Of a stretch of DNA of 50,476 nt, positions 1,993-39,060 are shown piece by piece; position 1 is the stretch's first letter; the number at the start of each line of letters is the position of its first letter. The position numbers were made by a program, and so were the translations under genes. This stretch comes from an uncultured Eubacteriales bacterium (GTDB taxonomy: Bacteria; Bacillota; Clostridia; Oscillospirales; Oscillospiraceae): contig ONIN01000023.1 of assembly GCA_900317905.1 (NCBI GenBank), positions 1-50,476 of the forward strand, written 5' to 3'. The notes below the pieces were generated by a model. That model saw nothing but the letters and a program-made list of their open reading frames with translations, did not search any database and was not told the origin of the DNA.

Positions 1993-2523
1993 TTACTGCG
2001 CGTTCATGCCGATGAGCTCGCTGATGGTGGAGAGCATGGCGTCGGCGGGGATCACGATGGTGCTGACCACATAGTAGAAGTGGCCGTCCTGGACCCAGCT
2101 TGCGGCGAAGAGCTCAGACTCGCTCATGCCCTTCACGGTGACGGTAATATCGTTCACGGTCACGTCCCCGGCGTAGTCATAGACGGTGTAGTCGCCGCTG
2201 ATGTCGGCCTCGGTCGCGCCCTTGCGGATGGTGAAGGTCTCACCGTCGGCGCCGGTGTACTGCACCTCGATGATATCCTGATCCATGGAGCGGTAGACGA
2301 TCTCATCGTCGGAGAAGAACATCTCCGGGGCCTTGAGGTCGATCTTCGCGTCCTCGCAGGCGGCGTCCAGAGAATCGTGGTCGACCCAGGGATTGCTGAG
2401 ATTGGCGGTGGGGTCGCTCTCCACGTTCACAACGTTGTCCTGCGCGGTATCGGTATTTCTGCTGCAGGCCGCCAGACCCAAAACCAGCACCAGCGTCAGC
2501 AGCAAAGAGAGAATCTTTTTCAT
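1993..2523 (-). CDS. Small lipoprotein of unknown function
   Basis: 176 aa from the ATG at 2523, which has GGAGG 6-7 nt upstream; a start five codons earlier is possible but lacks such a site. A type II signal peptide is clear: MKK, a Leu/Val-rich stretch and the lipobox LAAC with Cys20, so the mature protein should be anchored on the outer face of the membrane. The remaining 155 residues are acidic and contain the pattern VRS..QDIIEVQYTGADGETF, reminiscent of DUF4367-like secreted domains, but I do not recognise the family with certainty. It appears monocistronic, flanked by terminators on both sides. Confidence 0.8.
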   Translation of the reverse strand: MKKILSLLLTLVLVLGLAACSRNTDTAQDNVVNVESDPTANLSNPWVDHDSLDAACEDAKIDLKAPEMFFSDDEIVYRSMDQDIIEVQYTGADGETFTIRKGATEADISGDYTVYDYAGDVTVNDITVTVKGMSESELFAASWVQDGHFYYVVSTIVIPADAMLSTISELIGMNAQ

Positions 2524-2568
2524 GGGTTTGTCCTCCAAAATCTTGGGATTTTTCTGTTTCCACCCATA

Positions 2569-2605
2569 AAAACGACGCGGAACGAAAAAAGTTCCGCGTC
2601 GTTTT
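2569..2605. terminator. Bidirectional intrinsic terminator
   Basis: Perfect 15-bp inverted repeat aaaacgacgcggaac (2569-2583) / gttccgcgtcgtttt (2591-2605) with a 7-nt A-rich loop. On the minus strand it closes the alpha-hydroxyacid oxidase operon. It also insulates the lipoprotein gene. Confidence 0.85.
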
Positions 2606-2632
2606 GCATTTTTCAGATTATTTAAGATTTGT

Positions 2633-3658
2633 TCAAATTTCGAAGAACGTCACGCAGTCGCGGTTGATGTCGCTGAGCTTGTGGACGCCGCACATGGCCA
2701 TGGTATCCTTCAGCTCCGCGCCCAGCTTGTTGACGTAGACCTGCACGCCCTCGGCGCCGCCGCCGTAGACCATGTTCACGAAGGGACGGCCGATGAGCAC
2801 CGCGTCCGCGCCCAGGGCCAGGGCCTTAAAGATGTCGGTGCCGGTGCGGATGCCGCCGTCGGTGAAGATGGTGAGATCGTCGCCCATGGCGTCCTTGATG
2901 GCGGGGAGCACCTCAGCGGTGGCGGGGGTGGAGCCCAGCACGCGGCCGCCGTGGTTGGAGACCACGATGCCCTTGGCGCCGGCCTTGGCGGCCTTCTCGG
3001 CGCCGCGGATGGTCATGACGCCCTTCACCACGAAGGGGAGTCCGGCGTAGTCCGCGATCTCCTTCAGCTCCTCCACGGTCTTGCTGCCTGCGGGCGGCGT
3101 CAGATTCTTCAGGAAGGGGAGGCCGGCCGCGTCGATGTCCATGGCGATGAAGGGGCAGCCGGAGGTCTTGGACTTGTCCAGCTTTTCCTTCACAAGCTCT
3201 GTTGCCCAGGGCTTGATGGTGGGCACGCCCGCGCCGCCCGCGTCCTTGATGGCGGCGATGGCGCCGTCGAAGACCGCGGGGTTCTGGCCGTCACCGGTGA
3301 AGGCCATGATGCCGGCCTCGGCACAGGCGGGAACCAGGATCTGGTTGTAGGCCAGATCGTCATACTTGTCGCCGTAGTGGAGCTTCATGGCGCCCACGGG
3401 AGCGGCGAAGAAGGGGTACTTGTACTGCTTGCCGAAGAGCTCCACGGTGGTGTCCACGGGCACGTTCTCACAGATGGTGTCCATGTTCACGCAGATCTTC
3501 TGCCAGGCCTCGTAGTTCCGCTGGAACACGCTGCCGGGGCCCTTTGCGCCGGGGCCGGGGACGGTGTTGCCGCAGGCCTTGCCGTTACATACGGGGCAGC
3601 CCTTGCAGAAGGGGCCGATGCAGCCTCTCGCGGCCTCGATGATTTCTTTGTAATCCAT
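2633..3658 (-). CDS. FMN-dependent alpha-hydroxyacid oxidase/dehydrogenase-like protein
   Basis: 341 aa TIM-barrel flavoprotein of the lactate oxidase/glycolate oxidase superfamily. The FMN/substrate motif VVSNHGGRVLGS (catalytic His, substrate Arg) and the phosphate-binding FTDGGIRTGTDIFKALALGA followed by IGRPF are present. The N-terminus is unusual for classical lactate oxidase: residues 13-29 carry five Cys (C-x4-C-x2-C-x2-C-x4-C), which could hold a metal or Fe-S centre. Start ATG 3658 has GGAGG 8 nt upstream. It lies 29 bp after a small membrane protein and a PflX-like radical SAM gene on the same strand, so all three probably share a transcript. The substrate is not evident; L-lactate is a guess from the family. 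Confidence 0.85.
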   Translation of the reverse strand: MDYKEIIEAARGCIGPFCKGCPVCNGKACGNTVPGPGAKGPGSVFQRNYEAWQKICVNMDTICENVPVDTTVELFGKQYKYPFFAAPVGAMKLHYGDKYDDLAYNQILVPACAEAGIMAFTGDGQNPAVFDGAIAAIKDAGGAGVPTIKPWATELVKEKLDKSKTSGCPFIAMDIDAAGLPFLKNLTPPAGSKTVEELKEIADYAGLPFVVKGVMTIRGAEKAAKAGAKGIVVSNHGGRVLGSTPATAEVLPAIKDAMGDDLTIFTDGGIRTGTDIFKALALGADAVLIGRPFVNMVYGGGAEGVQVYVNKLGAELKDTMAMCGVHKLSDINRDCVTFFEI

Positions 3659-30573: not shown

Positions 30574-31662
30574 TCAGACCAGATCGGCGATCTCGAAGAT
30601 CATCTGTTCGGTCTTTTCCCAGCCGAGGCAGGGGTCGGTGATGCTCTGGCCGTAGACGTGGGCGTCCTCGGGCTTTTGGGCGCCGTCCACCAGATAGCTC
30701 TCGGTGATGAAGCCCTTGACCAGATCCCGGATCTCGGGGTTGATCTTCCGCTGCAGCAGCACCTCTCTGGCGATGCGGGGCTGCTCCAGATACTGCTTGT
30801 TGGAGTTGGAGTGGTTGGTGTCGATGATGACGGCGCGGTTTTGCACCGCCCGCTGCTGATACATGGCATGCAGGCGGGTGATGTCCTCATAGTGGTAGTT
30901 GGGGAGACTGGCGCCGTGCTTGTTCACATAGCCCCGGAGGATGGCGTGGGCGTAGGGATTGCCCATGCTCTCCACCTCCCAGTTGCGGTAGATGAAGGTG
31001 TGGGAGTGCTGGGCGGCGGTGATGGCGTTGAGCATGACGGTGTAGTCGCCGCTGGTGGGGTTTTTCATGCCCACGGGGATGTCGACGCCGCTGGCGGTCA
31101 GCCGGTGCTGCTGGTTCTCCACAGACCGGGCGCCAACGGCCACATAGGCCAGCAGATCGTCCACATACCGGTGCTGCTCGGGGTAGAGCATCTCGTCGGC
31201 GCAGCTGAAGCCGGTCTCGGTCAGGGCCCGCATGTGCAGCTCCCGGATGGTCAGGATGCCCTGGAGCACGTCGGGCTTCTGGGTGGGATCCGGCTGGTGG
31301 AGCATGCCCTTGTAGCCGTCGCCAGTGGTGCGGGGCTTGTTGGTATAGATGCGCGGCACGATCTTGATTTTTTCCTCCACCTGGGTCTGGACACACTTGA
31401 GCTTCGTGAGATACTCCAGCACGCTGTCCTCCCGGTCGGCGCTGCAGGGGCCGATGATCAAAAGCAGCCGGTCGTCGTCGCCGGAGAGGATGGCCTCGAT
31501 CTGGCGGATGTTCTCCAGACGCACGCTCCGCAGCTCCTCCGGCACGGGGTACTCCTGCTTCACATCTCTGGGGATGGGGAGCTTGCGGATGAAGTGCATG
31601 TTCATCGTCCGCTCATAGGGATTGTCGTAGGAGGTGCGGCTGCGCTTCAGATCCTGATCCAT
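30574..31662 (-). CDS. aroF: 3-deoxy-D-arabino-heptulosonate 7-phosphate synthase, type I (AroFGH)
   Basis: 362 aa from ATG 31662, which has GGAG upstream; the reading frame extends further but only as antisense-like sequence inside tyrA. It condenses phosphoenolpyruvate with erythrose 4-phosphate, the first step of the shikimate pathway. Class I-alpha signatures: LLIIGPCSADREDSVLEYL, PRIYTNKPRTTGDGYKGML, GARSVENQQHRLTASGVDIPVGMKNPTSGDY and VIIDTNHSNSNKQY. This is the E. coli AroF/G/H type, usually feedback-inhibited by Tyr, Phe or Trp; which one cannot be told, so the letter F is nominal. It is the last gene of the eight-gene operon. Confidence 0.95.
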   Translation of the reverse strand: MDQDLKRSRTSYDNPYERTMNMHFIRKLPIPRDVKQEYPVPEELRSVRLENIRQIEAILSGDDDRLLLIIGPCSADREDSVLEYLTKLKCVQTQVEEKIKIVPRIYTNKPRTTGDGYKGMLHQPDPTQKPDVLQGILTIRELHMRALTETGFSCADEMLYPEQHRYVDDLLAYVAVGARSVENQQHRLTASGVDIPVGMKNPTSGDYTVMLNAITAAQHSHTFIYRNWEVESMGNPYAHAILRGYVNKHGASLPNYHYEDITRLHAMYQQRAVQNRAVIIDTNHSNSNKQYLEQPRIAREVLLQRKINPEIRDLVKGFITESYLVDGAQKPEDAHVYGQSITDPCLGWEKTEQMIFEIADLV

Positions 31663-31679: not shown

Positions 31680-32540
31680 TCACTTGCCCTGATCCAGCGC
31701 CACGCGGCGGGCGGTGGATTTGCGCATCATGGTCTTGATGCCCTCGATATCCTTGCTGGCCAGCATCCACCTCAGGCGGCCGAACTCGGCGGCAAACAGG
31801 TCCATCTCGTGGATCAGCGCGTCGATGTTGTCCAGAAACAGCTCCGTCCACATGTCCTCGTTGATCCGGGCGATGCGGGTGAGATCCCGGAAGGAGTCGC
31901 CGGTGAAGCTGCCGATGTGGTCGGCGTCGTTGCAGGTCATCAGAGAGATGGCGATGCAGTGGGTCAGCTGGGAGGTGAAGGCGATCATCTCGTCGTGCAT
32001 CTCCGGGGTCAGCTCCGTGATCCGCTGGAAGCCCATGACCCGGCCCAGAGACTTGCAGACCTCGATGGCCTCGGGGGTGTTCTTTTCGGTGGGCACCACG
32101 ATGTAGTTGGCCTCTCGGAAGATCCGGTCGTCGGCATTCCGCACGCCGCAGACCTCCCGGCCCGCCATGGGGTGGGCGGCGATGTACTCCACATCGTCAC
32201 GCAGCATCTCCTGGATGTCATAGACCACGCAGCGCTTGACGCCGGTGACGTCGGTGATCAGGGCGCCGGGCTGGAAGTATTTCTGGTTCTCCTCGATCCA
32301 CTGCTTGAACACGTGGGGGTACAGGGCGAAGACGATGAGCTCCGCGCTGCCGATGAGCTCCGGGTCCGGGAAGGCCGCGCCATGGTCGATGAAGCCCTGC
32401 TCCAGAGCGTAGTCGATGTCCTCCTGCTTGTGGGCGATGGCGTTGACGTGGAAGCCCACCCGGTGCAGGGCCTTGGCGTAGCTGCCGCCCATGAGGCCGA
32501 GACCCACGATGAGAATGTTGGATTTACTGACGAGCTGCAT
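31680..32540 (-). CDS. tyrA: Prephenate dehydrogenase
   Basis: 286 aa. The N-terminal Rossmann motif ILIVGLGLMGGSYAKAL binds NAD(P). HPMAGREVCGVRNAD and the helical C-terminal domain (TSQLTHCIAISL, GSFTGDSFRDLTRIA) are typical of TyrA. It converts prephenate to 4-hydroxyphenylpyruvate for tyrosine. Neither a chorismate mutase domain nor an ACT domain is present, so feedback by Tyr through an ACT domain is not expected; attenuation upstream may provide that control. Start ATG 32540 overlaps the end of aroA by 17 bp. Confidence 0.95.
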   Translation of the reverse strand: MQLVSKSNILIVGLGLMGGSYAKALHRVGFHVNAIAHKQEDIDYALEQGFIDHGAAFPDPELIGSAELIVFALYPHVFKQWIEENQKYFQPGALITDVTGVKRCVVYDIQEMLRDDVEYIAAHPMAGREVCGVRNADDRIFREANYIVVPTEKNTPEAIEVCKSLGRVMGFQRITELTPEMHDEMIAFTSQLTHCIAISLMTCNDADHIGSFTGDSFRDLTRIARINEDMWTELFLDNIDALIHEMDLFAAEFGRLRWMLASKDIEGIKTMMRKSTARRVALDQGK

Positions 32541-33738
32541 GTTTCTTTACCTCGATCTTCAAGTTCTCGAATTGTTCAAAATAGTCCGGAAAGCTTTTTG
32601 CCACGGCCTCGGCGCCCCGGATCACGCCGCCCACCCGGGTGAGCAGCACGCTCATGGCCATGACGATCCGGTGGTCGTTGTGGCCGTCGATGGGCTCCGT
32701 TGGTCTGTGGATGCCGGGGAAGACCTCGATGCGGTCTTCGTCCAGGAGGCACCGGACGCCCAACTTGCTGAGTTCCTGCTCCATGGCGGCGCCCCGGTCG
32801 CTCTCTTTGATCTTCAATCTTCTGGTGCCGGTGAGGACGCAGCCGTTCAGGGCCGCCGAGAGGGCCATGAGGATCGGCGCCAGATCGGGACAGTCGGTGA
32901 CGTCCAGGGTCGGTTTCCCGGCCTTCAGAAGGGGGAAGTAGTCCTGATAGATCCGATCCCCCTGCTGACTTTCCCCGAGACCGGTGATCTCCACCGGGTC
33001 GCCCAGGGCCTCCAGTGCGGAGAAGAAGGCGGCGTTGGACCAGTCGCCCTCCACGGTGACATCCTTCGGCTGATACTGCTGCCCGCCGGGGACGGAAAGG
33101 GTGTTTTCGTCCTGCCACTCCACCGCGATCCCGAAGGTTTTCAGTGCCTCCACGGTGATGTTGAGATAGCTGCGGCTCTCCACCGGCGGGATCAGCTCGA
33201 TCCGGCTGTCTCTGTCCAAAAGCGGCAGCGCGAAGAGCAGACCGGTGATGAACTGGCTGCTGATGTTCCCCTGTACCGCAAAGGTTCCGGCCTGCAAGGG
33301 GCCCCGTAAGCGGATGCCGTTGCCGCTGGCTTCGAAGGTCAGCCCCTGCTTTTCGCAGATGCTTTCATACACGCTTTGGGGCCGCTGCATCAATCTGCCC
33401 TTTCCGGTGAGGGTGCAGGGCCTGCCGCTCAAGAGAAACAGCGGAATGCAGAACCGGAGGGTGCTGCCGCTCTCTCTGCAGGAGACGAGCGTATCCGTCG
33501 AAGCTTCAAAGGGGTTTGCGCCCTGCAGGGTCACGGTGTCGCCGTCGATCTGAACCTCCGCGCCCAGGGCCCGCAGCACGTCCAGCGTGGCGAGGATGTC
33601 CTCGGAAAAGGCCACGTTCCGGACGGTGCTTCTTCCCGCCGCCAGTCCGGCGCACAGCAGCAGCCGGTGGGCGGCGCTCTTGCTGGGCGGGGCTTTCACC
33701 ATGCCCTCGGCTCTGGAGGGGCGAATCTCAATGTCCAT
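32524..33738 (-). CDS. aroA: 3-phosphoshikimate 1-carboxyvinyltransferase (EPSP synthase)
   Basis: 404 aa. It joins shikimate 3-phosphate and phosphoenolpyruvate. Signatures: APPSKSAAHRLLLCAGLA (phosphate-binding Lys-Ser), SCRESGSTLRFCIPLFL (the LxxGNAGTxxR-like region, here with ESGSTLRF), QGNISSQFITGLLFALP, RLKIKESDRGAAM and DGHNDHRIVMAM. The ESGSTLRF form is typical of class II-like EPSP synthases in Clostridia, a class in which glyphosate tolerance occurs; tolerance here is untested. It overlaps aroQ by 11 bp and tyrA by 17 bp. ATG 33738 has GGAG upstream. Confidence 0.95.
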   Translation of the reverse strand: MDIEIRPSRAEGMVKAPPSKSAAHRLLLCAGLAAGRSTVRNVAFSEDILATLDVLRALGAEVQIDGDTVTLQGANPFEASTDTLVSCRESGSTLRFCIPLFLLSGRPCTLTGKGRLMQRPQSVYESICEKQGLTFEASGNGIRLRGPLQAGTFAVQGNISSQFITGLLFALPLLDRDSRIELIPPVESRSYLNITVEALKTFGIAVEWQDENTLSVPGGQQYQPKDVTVEGDWSNAAFFSALEALGDPVEITGLGESQQGDRIYQDYFPLLKAGKPTLDVTDCPDLAPILMALSAALNGCVLTGTRRLKIKESDRGAAMEQELSKLGVRCLLDEDRIEVFPGIHRPTEPIDGHNDHRIVMAMSVLLTRVGGVIRGAEAVAKSFPDYFEQFENLKIEVKKHAARQ

Positions 33739-34168
33739 GGATGTGCTCCAAAAGCCTGTCCACCGCCAGCAGATACCCGTCGGTGCCCATGCCGGTGATG
33801 GTTGCGATGCAGGCCAACCGGATGTAGCTCACCTGCCGGAAATCCTCTCTGCTCTCCACCTTGGAGATGTGCACCTCCACCGTGGGGATCTGCACGGACT
33901 TCACCGCGTCCAGCAGCGCCACGCTGGTGTGGGTGTAGGCGCCGGGGTTGATAATGATTCCGTCCACCTGGTCGAAATACGCCTGCTGGATCCGATCCAC
34001 CAGATCCCCCTCGTGGTTGGACTGGTAGAAGGTCACGTCAATGTGTTTATCATCACAGTAGTTTTGGATTTTTTCCAGCAGATCGGCGTAGGTCTCCCTT
34101 CCGTAGTGATCCGGCTCCCGGATGCCGAGGAAGTTCAGATTGGGGCCGTTGATGACCAGCAGCTTCAT
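33728..34168 (-). CDS. aroQ: 3-dehydroquinate dehydratase, type II
   Basis: 146 aa, normal for the dodecameric type II enzyme. Motifs: LLVINGPNLNFLGIREPDHYG (catalytic Arg and Tyr), FYQSNHEGDLVDRIQQA (Glu), IINPGAYTHTSVALLDA (Asn and catalytic His) and VEVHISKVESREDFRQVS. It dehydrates 3-dehydroquinate to 3-dehydroshikimate. ATG 34168 overlaps the stop of the aroE-aroK fusion by 4 bp (ATGA). Confidence 0.96.
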   Translation of the reverse strand: MKLLVINGPNLNFLGIREPDHYGRETYADLLEKIQNYCDDKHIDVTFYQSNHEGDLVDRIQQAYFDQVDGIIINPGAYTHTSVALLDAVKSVQIPTVEVHISKVESREDFRQVSYIRLACIATITGMGTDGYLLAVDRLLEHIHGH

Positions 34169-35403
34169 GATAAAAAGTCCTTTCGGATGGTATCGGCCAC
34201 GCTCTCAGCGTTGCCCTTTACAGGCACCCGCAGATCGGCGGTGCCGCAGTAGATGTCGTAACGCTCGTGATAGCGTTTTTCCAAGGCCGCCCGGTCAGAA
34301 GAGAGGGGACGGTCGTCGGTGGGGAGGATGTCCTCCAGAGCCCGGTCAATGAAGTAGATCCGTCCGTTGGCCTTGAGATGCCGGATGTTCTCTTCTCTCA
34401 AAATCGCGCCGCCGCCGGTGGAGATCACCACGCCGTTTTTCACGGCGGCCTCGGCGATCACTTCTGCCTCAATGTCCCGGAAGGCGGCTTCCCCCTGGGC
34501 AGAGATGATCTCCGAGGGGTGGAGGCCGGTTTTCTTCTGGATCTCCAGATCGGTTTCGATGAGCTGTCTTCCCATCTGCTCCGCCAGGATCGCGCCCACG
34601 GTGCTCTTGCCCGATCCGGGCATGCCGGTGAGGACGATGTTGATTTTGTCCAGCAAAACGGAGCGGAACACCTTGTCCAATGCGTCCGACCGCAGCTTCT
34701 TGTCCAAAAAGATCTCCACCGCCGCCACGGCCTGTCCCACCAGCATGTAGAGCCCGCCCTTCGCCGGGAGGCCGAGGCTGTGGGCCTGCTGGATCAGTTG
34801 GGTCTGCAGCGGATTGTACACCACGTCCATGACGCCCTCAAGCTTTTTGAAAGGCGCCAGATCCATGGCCTGTCCGTCGATCTTCGGGAACATCCCCGCC
34901 GGGGTGGTGTTCAGGATAATCTGGGCCTCCGGGCATTCCTGCGCTGCGGTTTCATAGGTGAGACTGCCGTCTTTCCGGTTGCGGCTGACGGTGCGGATCA
35001 CCCTGGCCCCCAGCTTCTTCGCCACATATTGGGCGGTTCTGGAGGTGCCGCCGGTGCCGAGGATCAGGACGGTCTTGCCCTGTAAATCCAAACCGATTTT
35101 ATGGATCAGCTGGGTCATGCCGGTCTGGTCGGTGTTGTCGCCGTAGAGCTTGCCGCCCCGGTTCACGATGGTGTTCACCGCGCCGATCTCCTTCGCGCTC
35201 TCGCTGATCTCGTCCAGGTAGGGGATCACGTCCTGCTTGTAGGGGATGGTCACGTTGATGGCTTTGAAGTCCTTTTGGCGCATGAAGGCGTCCAGATCCT
35301 CCTTCGCCACCTCGTGGAGCTCATAGGTGTAGTCCGCCAGCTGCTCGTGGATCTCCTTGGAGAAGCTGTGGGGGAGATGCTCCCCGATGAGTCCGTATTC
35401 CAT
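34165..35403 (-). CDS. Bifunctional shikimate dehydrogenase-shikimate kinase fusion
   Basis: 412 aa from ATG 35403 with GGAGG 7 nt upstream. Residues 1-250 are shikimate dehydrogenase (AroE): YGLIGEHLPHSFSKEIH, AINVTIPYKQDVIPYL (catalytic Lys), GDNTDQTGM, the NADP loop ILGTGGTSRTAQYVA and KGGLYMLVGQAVAA. Residues about 252-412 are shikimate kinase (AroK): Walker A LTGMPGSGKSTVG, the shikimate-binding Asp in ETDLEIQ, FRDIEAEVI and STGGGAIL. One chain thus carries two consecutive steps, 3-dehydroshikimate to shikimate 3-phosphate. Fusions of these two genes occur in some Firmicutes; no stop or frameshift lies between the domains. Confidence 0.95.
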   Translation of the reverse strand: MEYGLIGEHLPHSFSKEIHEQLADYTYELHEVAKEDLDAFMRQKDFKAINVTIPYKQDVIPYLDEISESAKEIGAVNTIVNRGGKLYGDNTDQTGMTQLIHKIGLDLQGKTVLILGTGGTSRTAQYVAKKLGARVIRTVSRNRKDGSLTYETAAQECPEAQIILNTTPAGMFPKIDGQAMDLAPFKKLEGVMDVVYNPLQTQLIQQAHSLGLPAKGGLYMLVGQAVAAVEIFLDKKLRSDALDKVFRSVLLDKINIVLTGMPGSGKSTVGAILAEQMGRQLIETDLEIQKKTGLHPSEIISAQGEAAFRDIEAEVIAEAAVKNGVVISTGGGAILREENIRHLKANGRIYFIDRALEDILPTDDRPLSSDRAALEKRYHERYDIYCGTADLRVPVKGNAESVADTIRKDFLS

Positions 35404-35404
35404 G

Positions 35405-36412
35405 TCAAGCCTCCCTGTACGCCCGATCAAATCGGGCCTTCAGCGCCTCGATGGTGACGCGCTGGATCTTGCCGTTTCCGATCTCGTCCACGGTGACGAT
35501 GTCCGCCATGCCGCTGAAAAACTTCTTGTCGTGCTGCATGGCCTGCCAGACGGCGTCCCGATCGAAGGAGATCTCCGTGGGCAGCCCCGCCTTTTTCAAG
35601 ACCGGCAGCAGCCGATTTTTGACTTCCTCCGCGCACATGGGCAGCATGCCCAGCCCCACGCACTCCCCGTGGAGGAGCGTGCCGGTGCTCTCGATGCCGT
35701 GGCCGATGGTGTGGCCGAAGTTCAGGAGCTTTCTCAATCCCTGCTCCGTCTCGTCCTGCTCCACCACGGATTTTTTGATTTTCAAAGAGCCGATGATCAC
35801 ATCCTCGATGTGTTCGATGGGATCGTTTTGCTCCAGAAATTCGAACAGTTCTCTGTCCGACGTGCAGGCCATTTTGATGGCTTCCGCCAGACCGTTGGAG
35901 ATCTGCCGGGGCTCCAAAGTATGGAGGGTGTCCGGGTCGATCAGCACCCGCTTCGGCTGCCAGAAGGCCCCGACGATGTTCTTCACCTGCTCCAGATTGA
36001 TGGCGACTTTTCCGCCGATGGAGGAGTCCACCTGAGACAGCACCGTGGTGGGGAGGTTGTAAAAATCGATCCCCCGCATGAAGCTGGCCGCCGCGAAGCC
36101 AGCGAGATCGCCCACCACGCCGCCGCCCACGGCCACGACACAGTCGGAGCGGTGGAAGTCCAGCTCCAGCATCTTTTTGCAGAGCATCTCGAAGACCGGG
36201 AAGCTCTTGCTGCCCTCGCCGACGCCCACGGTGACGATGGCGGGGTCTTTGCACTGGGCCGCCACGGTCTCGGCGTACTGCTTCGGCACGCCCTCATCTG
36301 TGACGATCAGGCATTTTCGGTTGAGATTCAGAAGCGTTCCCGCCTCTTTCAGGACGCCGCGCCGGACGATGATGTCATAGCTCCGGGCGCCCAGATCCAT
36401 GGTCAATGTCAT
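35405..36412 (-). CDS. aroB: 3-dehydroquinate synthase
   Basis: 335 aa, slightly short for AroB (about 350-360). NAD- and metal-dependent cyclisation of DAHP. Motifs: VGVGEGSKSFPVFEML, VAVGGGVVGDLAGFAAASFMRG, PTTVLSQVDSSIGGKVAIN, NGLAEAIKMA, LLNFGHTIGHGIES and LHGECVGLGM; the metal ligands Glu and the two His are present. It starts 10 bp after the pheA stop and ends one base before the aroE-aroK start. Confidence 0.96.
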   Translation of the reverse strand: MTLTMDLGARSYDIIVRRGVLKEAGTLLNLNRKCLIVTDEGVPKQYAETVAAQCKDPAIVTVGVGEGSKSFPVFEMLCKKMLELDFHRSDCVVAVGGGVVGDLAGFAAASFMRGIDFYNLPTTVLSQVDSSIGGKVAINLEQVKNIVGAFWQPKRVLIDPDTLHTLEPRQISNGLAEAIKMACTSDRELFEFLEQNDPIEHIEDVIIGSLKIKKSVVEQDETEQGLRKLLNFGHTIGHGIESTGTLLHGECVGLGMLPMCAEEVKNRLLPVLKKAGLPTEISFDRDAVWQAMQHDKKFFSGMADIVTVDEIGNGKIQRVTIEALKARFDRAYREA

Positions 36413-36422
36413 ATTCTTTCCC

Positions 36423-37520
36423 TCACAGCACGCAGTTTCGGCTGAAGGTGCCCACCACCTTGAGCCGGTCGCAGTAGGGGGCGAGCTCTTTGAGCATCTG
36501 CTGGCCCTTTTCGCTGTACACGTCCCCCTCGGCCTCCAGATAGAAGTAATACTCCCACAGCAGCTCCTTCACCGGCCGGCTGCGGAGGGTGCGCATGTTG
36601 TAGCCGTAGCTGCCGCCGAGGATCTGCAGGGCCGCCGCCAGGGAACCGGCCTCGTTCTTGCTGGTGAAGACCAGGATGAAGTGGTCGCCCATGCGCTTGC
36701 CCATGTCGGTGTTTCTTGCTCTGGAGAAGACGGCGAACCGGGTGGTGTTCCGGCTGCTCTCGTTGATGTTGGCCTCCAGCACCTCAAGATTGTAGAGCTC
36801 CGCGGTCTCGCGGCTGGCGATGGCGGCGCAGGTGGGGTCACCCAGCCAGGCCACGTGCTCGGCTGCCAGGGCGGTGTTGGCGTATTCCACCGCCTTCCAG
36901 CCGTGGTCTTGGAGGTATCCGGCGCACTGGCCCAGGGCCTGGGGGTGGCTGAAGACCTGCCGGATCTGCTCCGGTTTCGTCCCCGGGATGCCCACGAGAT
37001 TCTGGACGATCCCCAGCTCGTAGACGCCGTTGACGTGCAGCGGCCCGAAGAACATCAGATCCTGCACCTCGCCCACCTCGCCGTTGTAGCTGTTTTCGAT
37101 GGGCAGCACCGCGCAGTCGCATTCGCCGCTGACCACCGCCTCATAGGCGGAGCGGAAGTCCTTATAGCCGATCCGGTTCCCGTCGGGGAAGATCCGGCCG
37201 GCGGAGATGTGGGCGAAGGCCCCCTCCACGCCGCTGTATGCCACTCGGAGCTGCTGGCTCAGCCGCGCCTGATAGTCCCGGCTGAGGGCCATGGTGTTCT
37301 GCAGGAACTGGACGTAGTATTCCCGAATGACGCCGTTTTGGATGTAATTGCTGTTGCGCTGGATCAGCGCCTGCTCTCTCGCGGTGTCCAGGATGGGGAG
37401 CCCGTGCTCCCGCTTGTGCTCCGCCACCAGCTCCACGGCTTTCATCCGCTGCTCAAACAGCTCCGCCATCTGTTGGTCGATTTCAGAGATCTGCGCTCTC
37501 GCGGTCTCAAGTTTATTCAA
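36423..37520 (-). CDS. pheA: Bifunctional chorismate mutase/prephenate dehydratase (P-protein)
   Basis: 365 aa from TTG 37520 with GGAG 9 nt upstream; the upstream gene's stop lies inside that site. Residues about 1-90 form an AroQ-type chorismate mutase (RAQISEIDQQMAELFEQRMKA, VAEHKREHGLPILD). Residues about 100-280 form prephenate dehydratase (VAYSGVEGAFAH, LPIENSYNGEVGEV, SHPQALGQCAGYL, NTTRFAVF). The last 80 residues form an ACT domain for Phe feedback (NEAGSLAAALQILGGSYGYNMRTLRSRP). It routes chorismate to phenylpyruvate and also supplies prephenate to TyrA. Confidence 0.95.
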   Translation of the reverse strand: MNKLETARAQISEIDQQMAELFEQRMKAVELVAEHKREHGLPILDTAREQALIQRNSNYIQNGVIREYYVQFLQNTMALSRDYQARLSQQLRVAYSGVEGAFAHISAGRIFPDGNRIGYKDFRSAYEAVVSGECDCAVLPIENSYNGEVGEVQDLMFFGPLHVNGVYELGIVQNLVGIPGTKPEQIRQVFSHPQALGQCAGYLQDHGWKAVEYANTALAAEHVAWLGDPTCAAIASRETAELYNLEVLEANINESSRNTTRFAVFSRARNTDMGKRMGDHFILVFTSKNEAGSLAAALQILGGSYGYNMRTLRSRPVKELLWEYYFYLEAEGDVYSEKGQQMLKELAPYCDRLKVVGTFSRNCVL

Positions 37521-37526
37521 AATGCA

Positions 37527-38717
37527 TCACTCCGTGTAGGTTTTCATCAATGCTTCCATGGCCGGCAGGGCCCGGCGGATGGTGTCGGTGTCCACGCAGT
37601 AGCTGAGTCTGGCGTAGCCGGGATAGCCGAAGACCGTCCCCGGCACCAGCATCACTTCAAACTGCTTCGCCCGCTCACAGAAGGCCAGATCATCCGGCTC
37701 CGGCGATTTCAGAAACAGGTAGAAGGCCCCCTCGGGCTTCGCCATCTCATAGCCGTACTTGGTCAGCTCCGAATAGAGCAGATCCCGGTTGGTCTTGTAG
37801 ATGCTGAGGTCGCTGGTCTTGTCCAGCACCTTCGGCAGCATATACTGAAACAGCGTGTTGATGTTCACATAGCCCAAAATCCGCCCGGCCCCGCAGACCG
37901 AGGCGTAGAGATTTTCCGCCTCCGCTGCCTTGGGCGGCACCAGAATGTAGCCGATGCGCTCGCCGGGCATGGAGAGGCACTTGCTGTAGGAATAGGTGTA
38001 GATGGTGTTGTCGTAGTCGTTGGGCAGGAAGGGGAGGGTCATATCGTCGTCAAAGACCAGCTCCCGGTAGGGCTCGTCCGCCAGGATGTAGATGGGGTGG
38101 CCCACCTCGTCCTGCTTTCTCCGCAGAAGGTCGGACAGCGCCGTGATGGTCTCCTGAGAGAACACGGTGCCCGCGGGATTGCTGGGGGAGTTCACCACCA
38201 CGATCTTGGTCTTCTCCGTGATGGCAGCCTCCAGGGCCTCCAGGTCGATCTGGAAGTCCGCGCCCCGGCAGTTGACCTTCACGATCCTGCCGCCGAAGCA
38301 TTCGCCGTAGACCGCGTACTCCGGGTAGTAGGGTGCAAAGAGGATCACCTCGTCCCCCGGCAGCAGCACCGCCTTCATCACGATGGCCAGGGCGGCGGAG
38401 GCCCCTGCGGTGAGGTAGAGATCCGACGCGGTGTAGCTGGTGCCGTAGCGGCGGTTCAAGTCCTCCGCCACCGCCTCACGGACCCAGCCGAGCCCCGGCG
38501 CGGGGGTGTAGCTGTGAAGCTGGGCAGGGGGGACGGTGTTCAGAATGTCGATCAGCGTTTCGGTGACGATCTCCGGCGCGGGGACGTTGGGGTTCCCGAT
38601 GCTGAAGTTGAACACGTTTTCGGCGCCGATCTCCTGGGCCCGCTTCGCCGCGTATTCCGAGATCACCCGGATCAGATTCTGTTCCTTGCCGCACTGCAGC
38701 GCGTCCTGAGGCAACAT
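37527..38717 (-). CDS. PLP-dependent aminotransferase (class I/II), probably aromatic
   Basis: 396 aa from ATG 38717 with AGGTGG 7 nt upstream. Fold type I aminotransferase: FNFSIGNPNVPAPE, YTPAPGLGWVREAVAEDL, LTAGASAALAIVMKA, VNSPSNPAGTVF, ILADEPYRELVFDD and the cofactor Lys in YSYSKCLSMPGERIGY. As first structural gene of the Tyr/Phe operon it probably transaminates phenylpyruvate and 4-hydroxyphenylpyruvate; an aspartate or broad-range specificity cannot be excluded. It lies directly behind the attenuator, so it is the first gene affected by termination. Confidence 0.92.
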   Translation of the reverse strand: MLPQDALQCGKEQNLIRVISEYAAKRAQEIGAENVFNFSIGNPNVPAPEIVTETLIDILNTVPPAQLHSYTPAPGLGWVREAVAEDLNRRYGTSYTASDLYLTAGASAALAIVMKAVLLPGDEVILFAPYYPEYAVYGECFGGRIVKVNCRGADFQIDLEALEAAITEKTKIVVVNSPSNPAGTVFSQETITALSDLLRRKQDEVGHPIYILADEPYRELVFDDDMTLPFLPNDYDNTIYTYSYSKCLSMPGERIGYILVPPKAAEAENLYASVCGAGRILGYVNINTLFQYMLPKVLDKTSDLSIYKTNRDLLYSELTKYGYEMAKPEGAFYLFLKSPEPDDLAFCERAKQFEVMLVPGTVFGYPGYARLSYCVDTDTIRRALPAMEALMKTYTE

Positions 38718-38739
38718 GTGGATTCCACCTTTCATCCAT

Positions 38740-38799
38740 AAAAAAAGCCTTGCCCTTCGGCAAAGCGTCAAATCCTGTTTTTGGCTGCTTTGAACCGAA
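38740..38799 (-). promoter_or_regulatory. Transcription attenuator: antiterminator and terminator
   Basis: Minus strand. Terminator: 8-bp stem gctttgcc (38766-38759) / ggcaaggc (38754-38747) with loop gaag, followed by TTTTTTT (38746-38740). Antiterminator: ttcggttcaaagc (38799-38787), which starts right after the leader stop codon, pairs with gctttgccgaa (38766-38756) over 11 bp with a two-base bulge. The antiterminator uses the entire left arm of the terminator, so the two structures exclude each other. A ribosome that reaches the leader stop codon would cover the antiterminator's left arm and favour termination. Confidence 0.82.
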
Positions 38800-38907
38800 T
38801 CATGCGATTGTGCTGCGATCGTAGGAATAACCATAAAAATAACCAGCAAAAGAAGCCGCAAACTTCTCTGCGGCATAGGCATAGGTATAGCTGGTGTGAT
38901 TTCTCAT
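38800..38907 (-). CDS. Tyr/Phe-rich leader peptide of the aromatic operon
   Basis: 35 codons, ATG 38907 with GGAG 6 nt upstream, stop TGA at 38802-38800. Seven of 35 residues are Tyr (positions 7, 9, 11, 23, 25, 27, 29) and three are Phe (16, 20, 24), with clusters YTYAY and YFYGYSY; no Trp. This is far above normal Tyr content and fits a regulatory leader peptide whose translation senses charged tRNA-Tyr and tRNA-Phe. It is too short and too biased to be a normal protein. It lies between the operon promoter and the attenuator hairpins. Confidence 0.85.
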   Translation of the reverse strand: MRNHTSYTYAYAAEKFAASFAGYFYGYSYDRSTIA

Positions 38908-38955
38908 GGTACGCTCCCGATGGCAGCCGATCCGGCTCCGTTTTGGTACTTTATA

Positions 38956-38984
38956 AATATACGCTCATTTCCATCATTCGTCAA
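38956..38984 (-). promoter_or_regulatory. Promoter of the aromatic amino-acid operon
   Basis: Minus strand: TTGACG (38984-38979), 17-bp spacer, TATATT (38961-38956). Initiation near 38949 leaves about 40 nt before the leader peptide ATG. Confidence 0.8.
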
Positions 38985-39035
38985 TAGAAACTTTAACGAT
39001 ATTTTACTTTAAATGGATAGATTTTTGGTCAAAAC

Positions 39036-39060
39036 GAAAAAGCCGATCCAGTGACCGGCT
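39036..39060 (-). terminator. Terminator after bioY
   Basis: Minus strand stem agccggtc (39060-39053) / gatcggct (39048-39041) with a four-base loop and one G-U, then TTTTT. It separates bioY from the aromatic operon. Confidence 0.75.

Follow-up and report, generated by a model that had tools for sequence, protein, structure and literature searches.

The window, a stretch of 50,476 nucleotides from a contig of an uncultured Eubacteriales bacterium, contains an operon of eight aromatic amino-acid genes preceded by a leader region, all on the reverse strand, Table 1. An earlier reading made from the letters alone (the sequence-only reading) had described an eight-gene aromatic operon here, and the genes were found to agree with it; it had also held that TyrA lacks an ACT domain and TyrA indeed gave no match to one. 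The aroE-aroK fusion is a single protein of 421 aa. BioY is encoded upstream of the leader and is followed by a terminator-like site.

Table 1. Leader features and genes of the aromatic operon, in window coordinates.
Feature	Position	Strand	Remark
Promoter: -35 TTGACG, 17-nt spacer, -10 TATATT	38956..38984	-	from sequence
Small 5' hairpin GCCG-GAT-CGGC	38926..38936	-	by eye
Leader ribosome-binding site (SD) GGGAG	38914..38918	-	from sequence
Leader ORF, 35 codons, 7 Tyr + 3 Phe, product MRNHTSYTYAYAAEKFAASFAGYFYGYSYDRSTIA	38800..38907	-	stop TGA 38802-38800
Hairpin GCCGCA-N8-TGCGGC within leader ORF, just 5' of main Tyr/Phe codons	38855..38874	-	
Antiterminator left arm TTCGG-TT-CAAAGC	38787..38799	-	from first base after leader TGA onward
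Antiterminator right arm GCTTTGCCGAA, common to terminator left arm + loop	38756..38766	-	
Intrinsic terminator: 8-bp stem, GAAG loop, T7	38740..38766	-	
Class I/II aminotransferase, operon gene 1	37527..38717	-	
pheA, chorismate mutase-prephenate dehydratase	36423..37520	-	
aroB, 3-dehydroquinate synthase	35405..36412	-	
aroE-aroK fusion (shikimate dehydrogenase + shikimate kinase)	34165..35430	-	
aroQ, type II 3-dehydroquinate dehydratase	33728..34168	-	
aroA, EPSP synthase	32524..33738	-	
tyrA, prephenate dehydrogenase	31680..32540	-	
aroF, DAHP synthase (aroFGH type), last gene	30574..31662	-	start by eye inside 425-aa ORF

Organisation of the leader

The promoter, which is sigma-70-like, the SD sequence and the leader ORF with its Tyr and Phe codons were all located where the sequence-only reading had placed them, and the first base past the TGA, 38799, does begin the antiterminator left arm. 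The ORF has its own ribosome-binding site, lies between the promoter and the first gene and is enriched in codons for the end products of the pathway. Among the 320 window ORFs of 20–60 codons it ranked first for the fraction of Tyr plus Phe (10/35) and it was the only one with at least 7 Tyr. Between the ORF and the first gene lies the intrinsic terminator, GCTTTGCC-GAAG-GGCAAGGC-T7. GCTTTGCC is also part of the antiterminator, confirming the earlier claim that the two structures share an arm. The antiterminator, as read from the sequence, pairs the left arm with GCTTTG-CCGAA through 5 + 6 bp with a TT bulge, and it also folds in computation once the right arm of the terminator is omitted. 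The sequence and these partial folds thus indicate an antiterminator that excludes the terminator and whose left arm could be covered by a ribosome standing at the stop codon. The last Tyr codon of the run YFYGYSY ends 21 nt 5' of the left arm.

The fold of the leader region was better than that of 200 out of 200 shuffled sequences (z -3.7, whole-region MFE). In this whole-region MFE structure the antiterminator left arm is paired to the 5' end of the leader and not to the antiterminator right arm. The strength of the antiterminator itself relative to shuffles was modest (z -2.5). The hairpin within the ORF is followed by TTCTTTT and was itself scored as terminator-like; it may be a pause hairpin or a site of early termination.

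Conservation within the genus

The sequence-only reading had named beforehand a comparison of orthologous loci as the test on which it could fail. The Tyr/Phe ORF, the hairpin within it and the terminator were found 5' of the same aminotransferase gene in seven of ten genus genomes (G000, which is the window's own, G204, G203, G205, G079, G201 and G206). In the seven aligned loci the TTGAC of the -35 element and the GGAG of the leader ribosome-binding site are invariant, and the hairpin arms GCCGCA/TGCGGC are identical throughout while the loop varies. A sequence resembling the small 5' hairpin, with changed letters, was visible by eye in several of the seven relatives. By eye, the antiterminator pairing is TTCGG:CCGAA in five of the leaders and could be CCGG:CCGG in G201 and G206, where it is less supported by partial folds and by z (-1.8 and -0.1, respectively). 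The covarying stems that had also been looked for were hardly apparent at this level, as RNAalifold on the seven leaders gave only two out of 32 consensus pairs that change on both sides; they appeared in a larger set of 26 related family leaders, described below.

The four closest leaders differ by synonymous codon changes in all six pairwise comparisons (3–6 per pair) and by a greater number of non-synonymous differences, again in all six (6–10 per pair). This excess suggests that outside the core FAASFAGxFYGYSY it is mainly the composition of the peptide that is kept in these close leaders. Two of the other three genus genomes, G153 and G200, have the aminotransferase gene after an apparent aroQ (by eye), and carry, 5' of aroF, a Tyr/Phe leader of another subtype that shares contig and strand with the aminotransferase gene and lies approximately 7 kb upstream of it. 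In G202 no such leader was found 5' of the aminotransferase gene and there was no strong match elsewhere to either of the two models used in this work, R1, which was built from the seven genus leaders, and R2, described below. Taken together, aromatic genes are under a predicted attenuator in nine of the ten genus genomes (seven plus two). No clear leader was seen directly 5' of the aminotransferase gene in 27 loci sampled from other genera.

Tyr/Phe leaders before DAHP synthase and transporter genes

Searching the family with R1 gave matches in 70 of 400 genomes at E values up to 0.1, those outside the genus being mostly weak. Among the stronger family loci, which were those inspected (L073–L096, without the truncated L074 and L082), two, L081 and L086, have Tyr/Phe leaders 5' of ABC_sub_bind (PF04392) genes. 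A third, L077 (about 1459–1629), has a leader, MASYACMNNTASCTGAKATGYCAANFYGYTYGR..., rich in Tyr, Ala and Cys, that stands with a terminator 5' of a Peripla_BP_6 binding-protein gene. No such leader was seen in the rest.

The regions upstream of DAHP synthase genes (PF00793) were screened next. An ORF rich in Tyr, Phe or Trp followed by a terminator was present in 40 of 70 regions, made up of the 30 best-scoring loci and 40 picked by hand, and in 0/70 on the reverse strand, which is an imperfect control because its composition differs. At least two of the 40 positive regions (L249 and L272) are doubtful, as the terminator lies inside the ORF. The p values of these leader screens rank the candidates rather than measure significance, since the residue background consisted of round numbers. 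Examples of these leaders are MKNSLSTKAYFGFYYYYFFPKK and MSFFMNRFSSAYYYFTYYFFKR. The leaders of the family mix Tyr and Phe codons and fall into several RNA subtypes, across which the composition of the peptide, not its sequence, is common. Two subtypes of aroF leader could be recognised by their peptide strings, GWARF..GFF in L267, L269, L275 and L313 and KAYFGL in L286, L290, L292 and L293; their terminators have sequences other than those of the remaining leaders.

For the PF04392 genes, no Tyr/Phe leader was seen in the 30 best loci, though some truncated ones among them were possibly read off position. A further 99 upstream regions contained a leader in nine cases at p<1e-3 and in nine more at p<0.03, with the reverse strand giving 0 and 3, respectively. 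Only the strict cut discriminates (Phe and Tyr 9, next best residue pair 5), as other residue pairs score in up to 21/99 regions once the cut is loosened. This screen missed a leader in the window's own genome, which R2 later found. This second Tyr/Phe leader, MAHSLFARRFYYYYF, lies at G000:C26:24803-24850 (L148 298-345) 5' of an ABC_sub_bind gene, with its R2 element at G000:C26:24858-24928. PF04392 presumably includes transporters of the tryptophan type.

A shared antiterminator element

Twenty-six leaders of the family carry TAATRGYRNTTTGTGNTGC or a near form of it, which can pair with the left arm of the terminator. The arms of each leader form a mean of 8.92 out of 10 pairs with each other, compared with 7.84 (sd 0.14) when arms are swapped among the 26 leaders; the maximum in 2000 such permutations was 8.35, though as the leaders are related to each other this is not a strict probability. 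Alignment A3 and model R2 were built from 21 of the 26; L192, L195, L226, L283 and L316 were removed by hand from these but are still counted in the figures for covariation and arm geometry.

The position of the stop codon relative to the start of the arm varies. It lies 0–8 nt before the arm in 14 of the 26 leaders and beyond the arm start by 11–23 nt in seven and by 35–45 nt in five. A ribosome at the stop codon should therefore meet the arm in 21 leaders, and it is doubtful that it would cover the arm in the five with the longest overlap. The last control codon ends 6–24 nt 5' of the arm, a spacing which for most leaders fits the ribosome footprint. The reading frame that runs through the shared element differs from leader to leader. 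A TAA triplet 9 nt 5' of the TTTGTG motif is present in 22 of the 26, for example in L278 (272–274), L174 and L305; it is the in-frame stop in 11, is read through by an ORF in another frame in 10 and lies after an ORF that ends earlier in one. This conserved TAA may be a relic of an ancestral stop codon or may have a role in the RNA. Measured against shuffles in 64 leaders, the strength of the antiterminator had a mean z of -1.4, with positive values in 13. A protector (1:2) helix, which would bring back termination in the absence of translation, was not supported (mean z -0.48 over the 26 related leaders).

R2 describes TAATRG-TTTGTGCTGC attenuators; it does not match the element in the window, which is not of the TTTGTGCTGC type but a separate subtype, represented by R1. 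Within the window's genome R2 matches the leader of the ABC gene on C26 and, weakly, a site on C36.

Distribution and target genes

At E values up to 0.01, R2 matched 149 of the 300 genomes searched in the family, with 73 of 106 genera represented, and below 1e-6 it matched 77 of the 300 genomes (count from table). Twenty-one of the 149 genomes had supplied training sequences and the weak matches may be bare terminators. In genomes drawn from the order and from the class, matches at E values up to 0.001 were found in 48/245 and 29/245, respectively; a few of these genomes are common to the two draws or belong to the family.

The 30 best family loci comprise 26 that are 5' of aroF, three that are 5' of a PF04392 gene and one that is neither. 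Of these 30, 18 come from training genomes and the other 12 divide into ten, one and one, respectively. In the order and class, aroF is downstream on the same strand in 24 of 38 loci, 22 of these being in 13 other families. The remaining 14 show no aroF or ABC homology, and one of them, L354, is a tyrS locus. In L354, from another family (E 8.4e-9, 1430–1620), an attenuator of the same type with a leader ending NYYCKE lies approximately 0.4 kb upstream of tyrS (1998–3083; TIGR00234, 338 bits). The other non-aroF loci that were inspected resemble bare terminators.

The control codons lie 5' of the part covered by R2, so the codon content of the preceding sequence provides a further check on these loci. 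Outside the training set, at least six Tyr or Phe were found in the preceding 14–15 codons in 30 of 40 loci (mean 6.4). Control stretches 300 nt upstream reached this number in 1/39 (mean 1.7). Loci and controls were each scored in the best of their three frames, and some of the loci are close relatives of training sequences. One locus of 41, L353, was dropped for want of a start point, and L387–L389 score low because their stop codon precedes the element.

Mechanism and alternative explanations

The anatomy of the leader, its conservation and its codon content make it very probable that the element is a ribosome-mediated transcription attenuator sensing charged tRNA-Tyr and tRNA-Phe, as the sequence-only reading had proposed; the comparative test did not refute that proposal and the results above support it. 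The main signal may be Tyr, as that reading suggested from the Tyr bias, or Phe, both being mixed in the leaders of the family. In the predicted mechanism, transcription of the leader probably pauses near the hairpin within the ORF while a ribosome starts translation of the leader peptide, so that polymerase and ribosome would become coupled. When both Tyr and Phe are plentiful the ribosome would reach the stop codon and cover the left arm of the antiterminator. The shared arm would then join the terminator and transcription would end before the aminotransferase gene. When Tyr or Phe is short the ribosome would stall at the YFYGYSY codons, leaving the left arm free to capture the shared arm; no terminator would form and the eight-gene operon would be read.

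The wait for a charged tRNA could in principle be replaced by arrest of the ribosome by the nascent peptide after sensing free Tyr or Phe, in the manner of TnaC. Recurring peptide motifs do go further than a simple richness in Tyr/Phe, with FAG in many of the ABC leaders and GWARF..GFF or KAYFGL-like strings in some aroF leaders. However, by eye, the FAG codons TTT GCG GGC of the ABC leaders can form a short hairpin with a nearby CGC, and a hairpin arm encodes the neighbouring FAA in the genus leaders, so the RNA can explain part of the recurrence. Leaders of different subtypes share composition rather than peptide sequence, and by simple reasoning sensing of the TnaC kind would have its sign reversed for a biosynthetic operon. 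Arrest by the peptide is thus considered unlikely.

It is more improbable still that the terminator is constitutive and, together with a conserved but non-regulatory upstream ORF, sets only a basal level of expression. Such an arrangement would account for those leaders in which the antiterminator is no more stable than in shuffled sequences, but not for the covariation of the arms among the 26 related leaders, for the concentration of Tyr/Phe codons just 5' of the arm in non-training loci or for the position of the strong R2 matches 5' of aromatic genes.

T-box leaders sense uncharged tRNA and act on a terminator, and unlike the leader described here they need no ORF. There is a very small probability that control of the operon lies with a T-box, or another RNA binding tRNA or a metabolite, and that the ORF has no part in it. 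The genome does possess T-boxes, with six matches of which two are above the cut-off. Within 1.7 kb downstream of them, profiles identified pheS, valS (with another ORF in between) and a TrpB-like gene, and cysS, alaS and thrS were recognised by eye. The sequence-only reading had seen no T-box at the aromatic locus, and the search agreed: RF00230 gave no match at the gathering score in the window and none at E values up to 1 in 38600–39060, where the conserved feature is the Tyr/Phe ORF. This genome therefore appears to control pheS by a T-box and the aromatic operon by the ribosome. T-boxes were also found in 8 of 20 loci from among the 30 best family PF04392 loci, seven being upstream of the gene (L118, L126, L127, L130, L133, L135 and L136) and that of L119 downstream. 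The presence of T-boxes 5' of some PF04392 genes means that two tRNA-sensing systems appear to share one transporter family.

A last possibility is that the leader is the start of a longer aminotransferase of 451 aa, begun at ATG 38882 and hydrophobic at its N-terminus, with the terminator there by accident. The ORF list does offer a 451-aa frame, and the open frame is 458 aa. This reading was rejected as practically negligible because in six other genus genomes, where the matches are close to full length, the open frame is only 401–432 aa and leaves no room for the extension, and five of these six keep the terminator and the Tyr/Phe ORF.

Relation to known attenuators

Attenuation by a leader peptide is a textbook mechanism, and the enterobacterial phe leader (Phe_leader) combines a leader peptide for Phe and alternative structures. 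The control of amino-acid operons in Firmicutes is most often attributed to T-boxes or repressors. The window gave a weak match to Phe_leader (RF01859) at 38738–38869 on the reverse strand, with 19.5 bits and E 0.91, well below the gathering score of 55. The element in the window differs from this leader in its mixture of Tyr and Phe codons, in belonging to another phylum and in preceding another operon. At the gathering scores no Rfam family matched the window leader or 20 DAHP-synthase upstream regions, and a search of 13 loci at E values up to 1 gave only sub-threshold matches, Leu_leader on L278 (24.7 bits, cut-off 50, E 0.19) and four others. A plasmid search with the leader DNA gave no match.

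Several published systems of Firmicutes come close. The available parts of two reports describe predicted His leader attenuators with tandem codons for the product in the leader peptide (PMC2965389, PMC9413887). The second of these also notes a terminator and antiterminator in Gram-positives, and places His leaders in few species, namely six of the B. cereus group, five Eubacteriales and six Erysipelotrichales (PMC9413887). These leaders, which we liken to ours from their description rather than their sequence, would respond to histidine. The ilv-leu operon of S. aureus, according to the portion of the paper available, has a Leu-rich attenuator peptide supported by selected mutations that alter a codon of the leader or the terminator (PMC5794164). 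It too is a Firmicute case of leader-peptide attenuation of biosynthesis, with leucine as the signal and in the Bacilli. A further case is uORFC-13-1 upstream of aroF, a uORF with one or more Phe codons and a terminator, for which a function was proposed (PMC8632094). In the sections available it has 24 representatives, only from Acholeplasma and environmental sequences, with at least one Phe residue (PMC8632094); the leaders of the window type have long runs of Tyr and Phe, a comparison again made by description rather than sequence.

Among the titles and opening lines of abstracts listed in literature searches, none concerned Tyr/Phe leader attenuators in Clostridia, most subscription journals being outside the scope of these searches. 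The available parts of PMC1262725, PMC7858274 and PMC3766115 do not describe a Tyr/Phe leader family. The kind of attenuator is known, and the putative Tyr/Phe leader family was in none of the papers listed and reached no Rfam cut-off.

The predicted attenuator of the window is one of a wider set of such Tyr/Phe leaders, assigned by sequence comparison, that stand before DAHP synthase genes, PF04392 genes and, in one locus, tyrS. It is likely that attenuation of this type is a main control of DAHP synthase, the entry to aromatic biosynthesis, of a likely aromatic transporter family and, in at least one lineage, of tyrS across the Clostridia, with several RNA subtypes and one antiterminator element kept across reading frames. 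Judged from the available parts of the papers cited above, the published leader-peptide attenuators of Firmicutes are scattered cases (His, Leu and a proposed Phe uORF). If Clostridia carry a large set of Tyr/Phe leaders, this would account for how their aromatic pathway is controlled and would fill a gap in Rfam. Such a set would also supply many natural reporters of the coupling of transcription to translation in a phylum where this coupling is disputed. A 2020 study of B. subtilis reportedly found transcription there to be uncoupled from translation. If the attenuation proposed here is true, close coupling, at least at leaders, would be widespread in relatives of B. subtilis.
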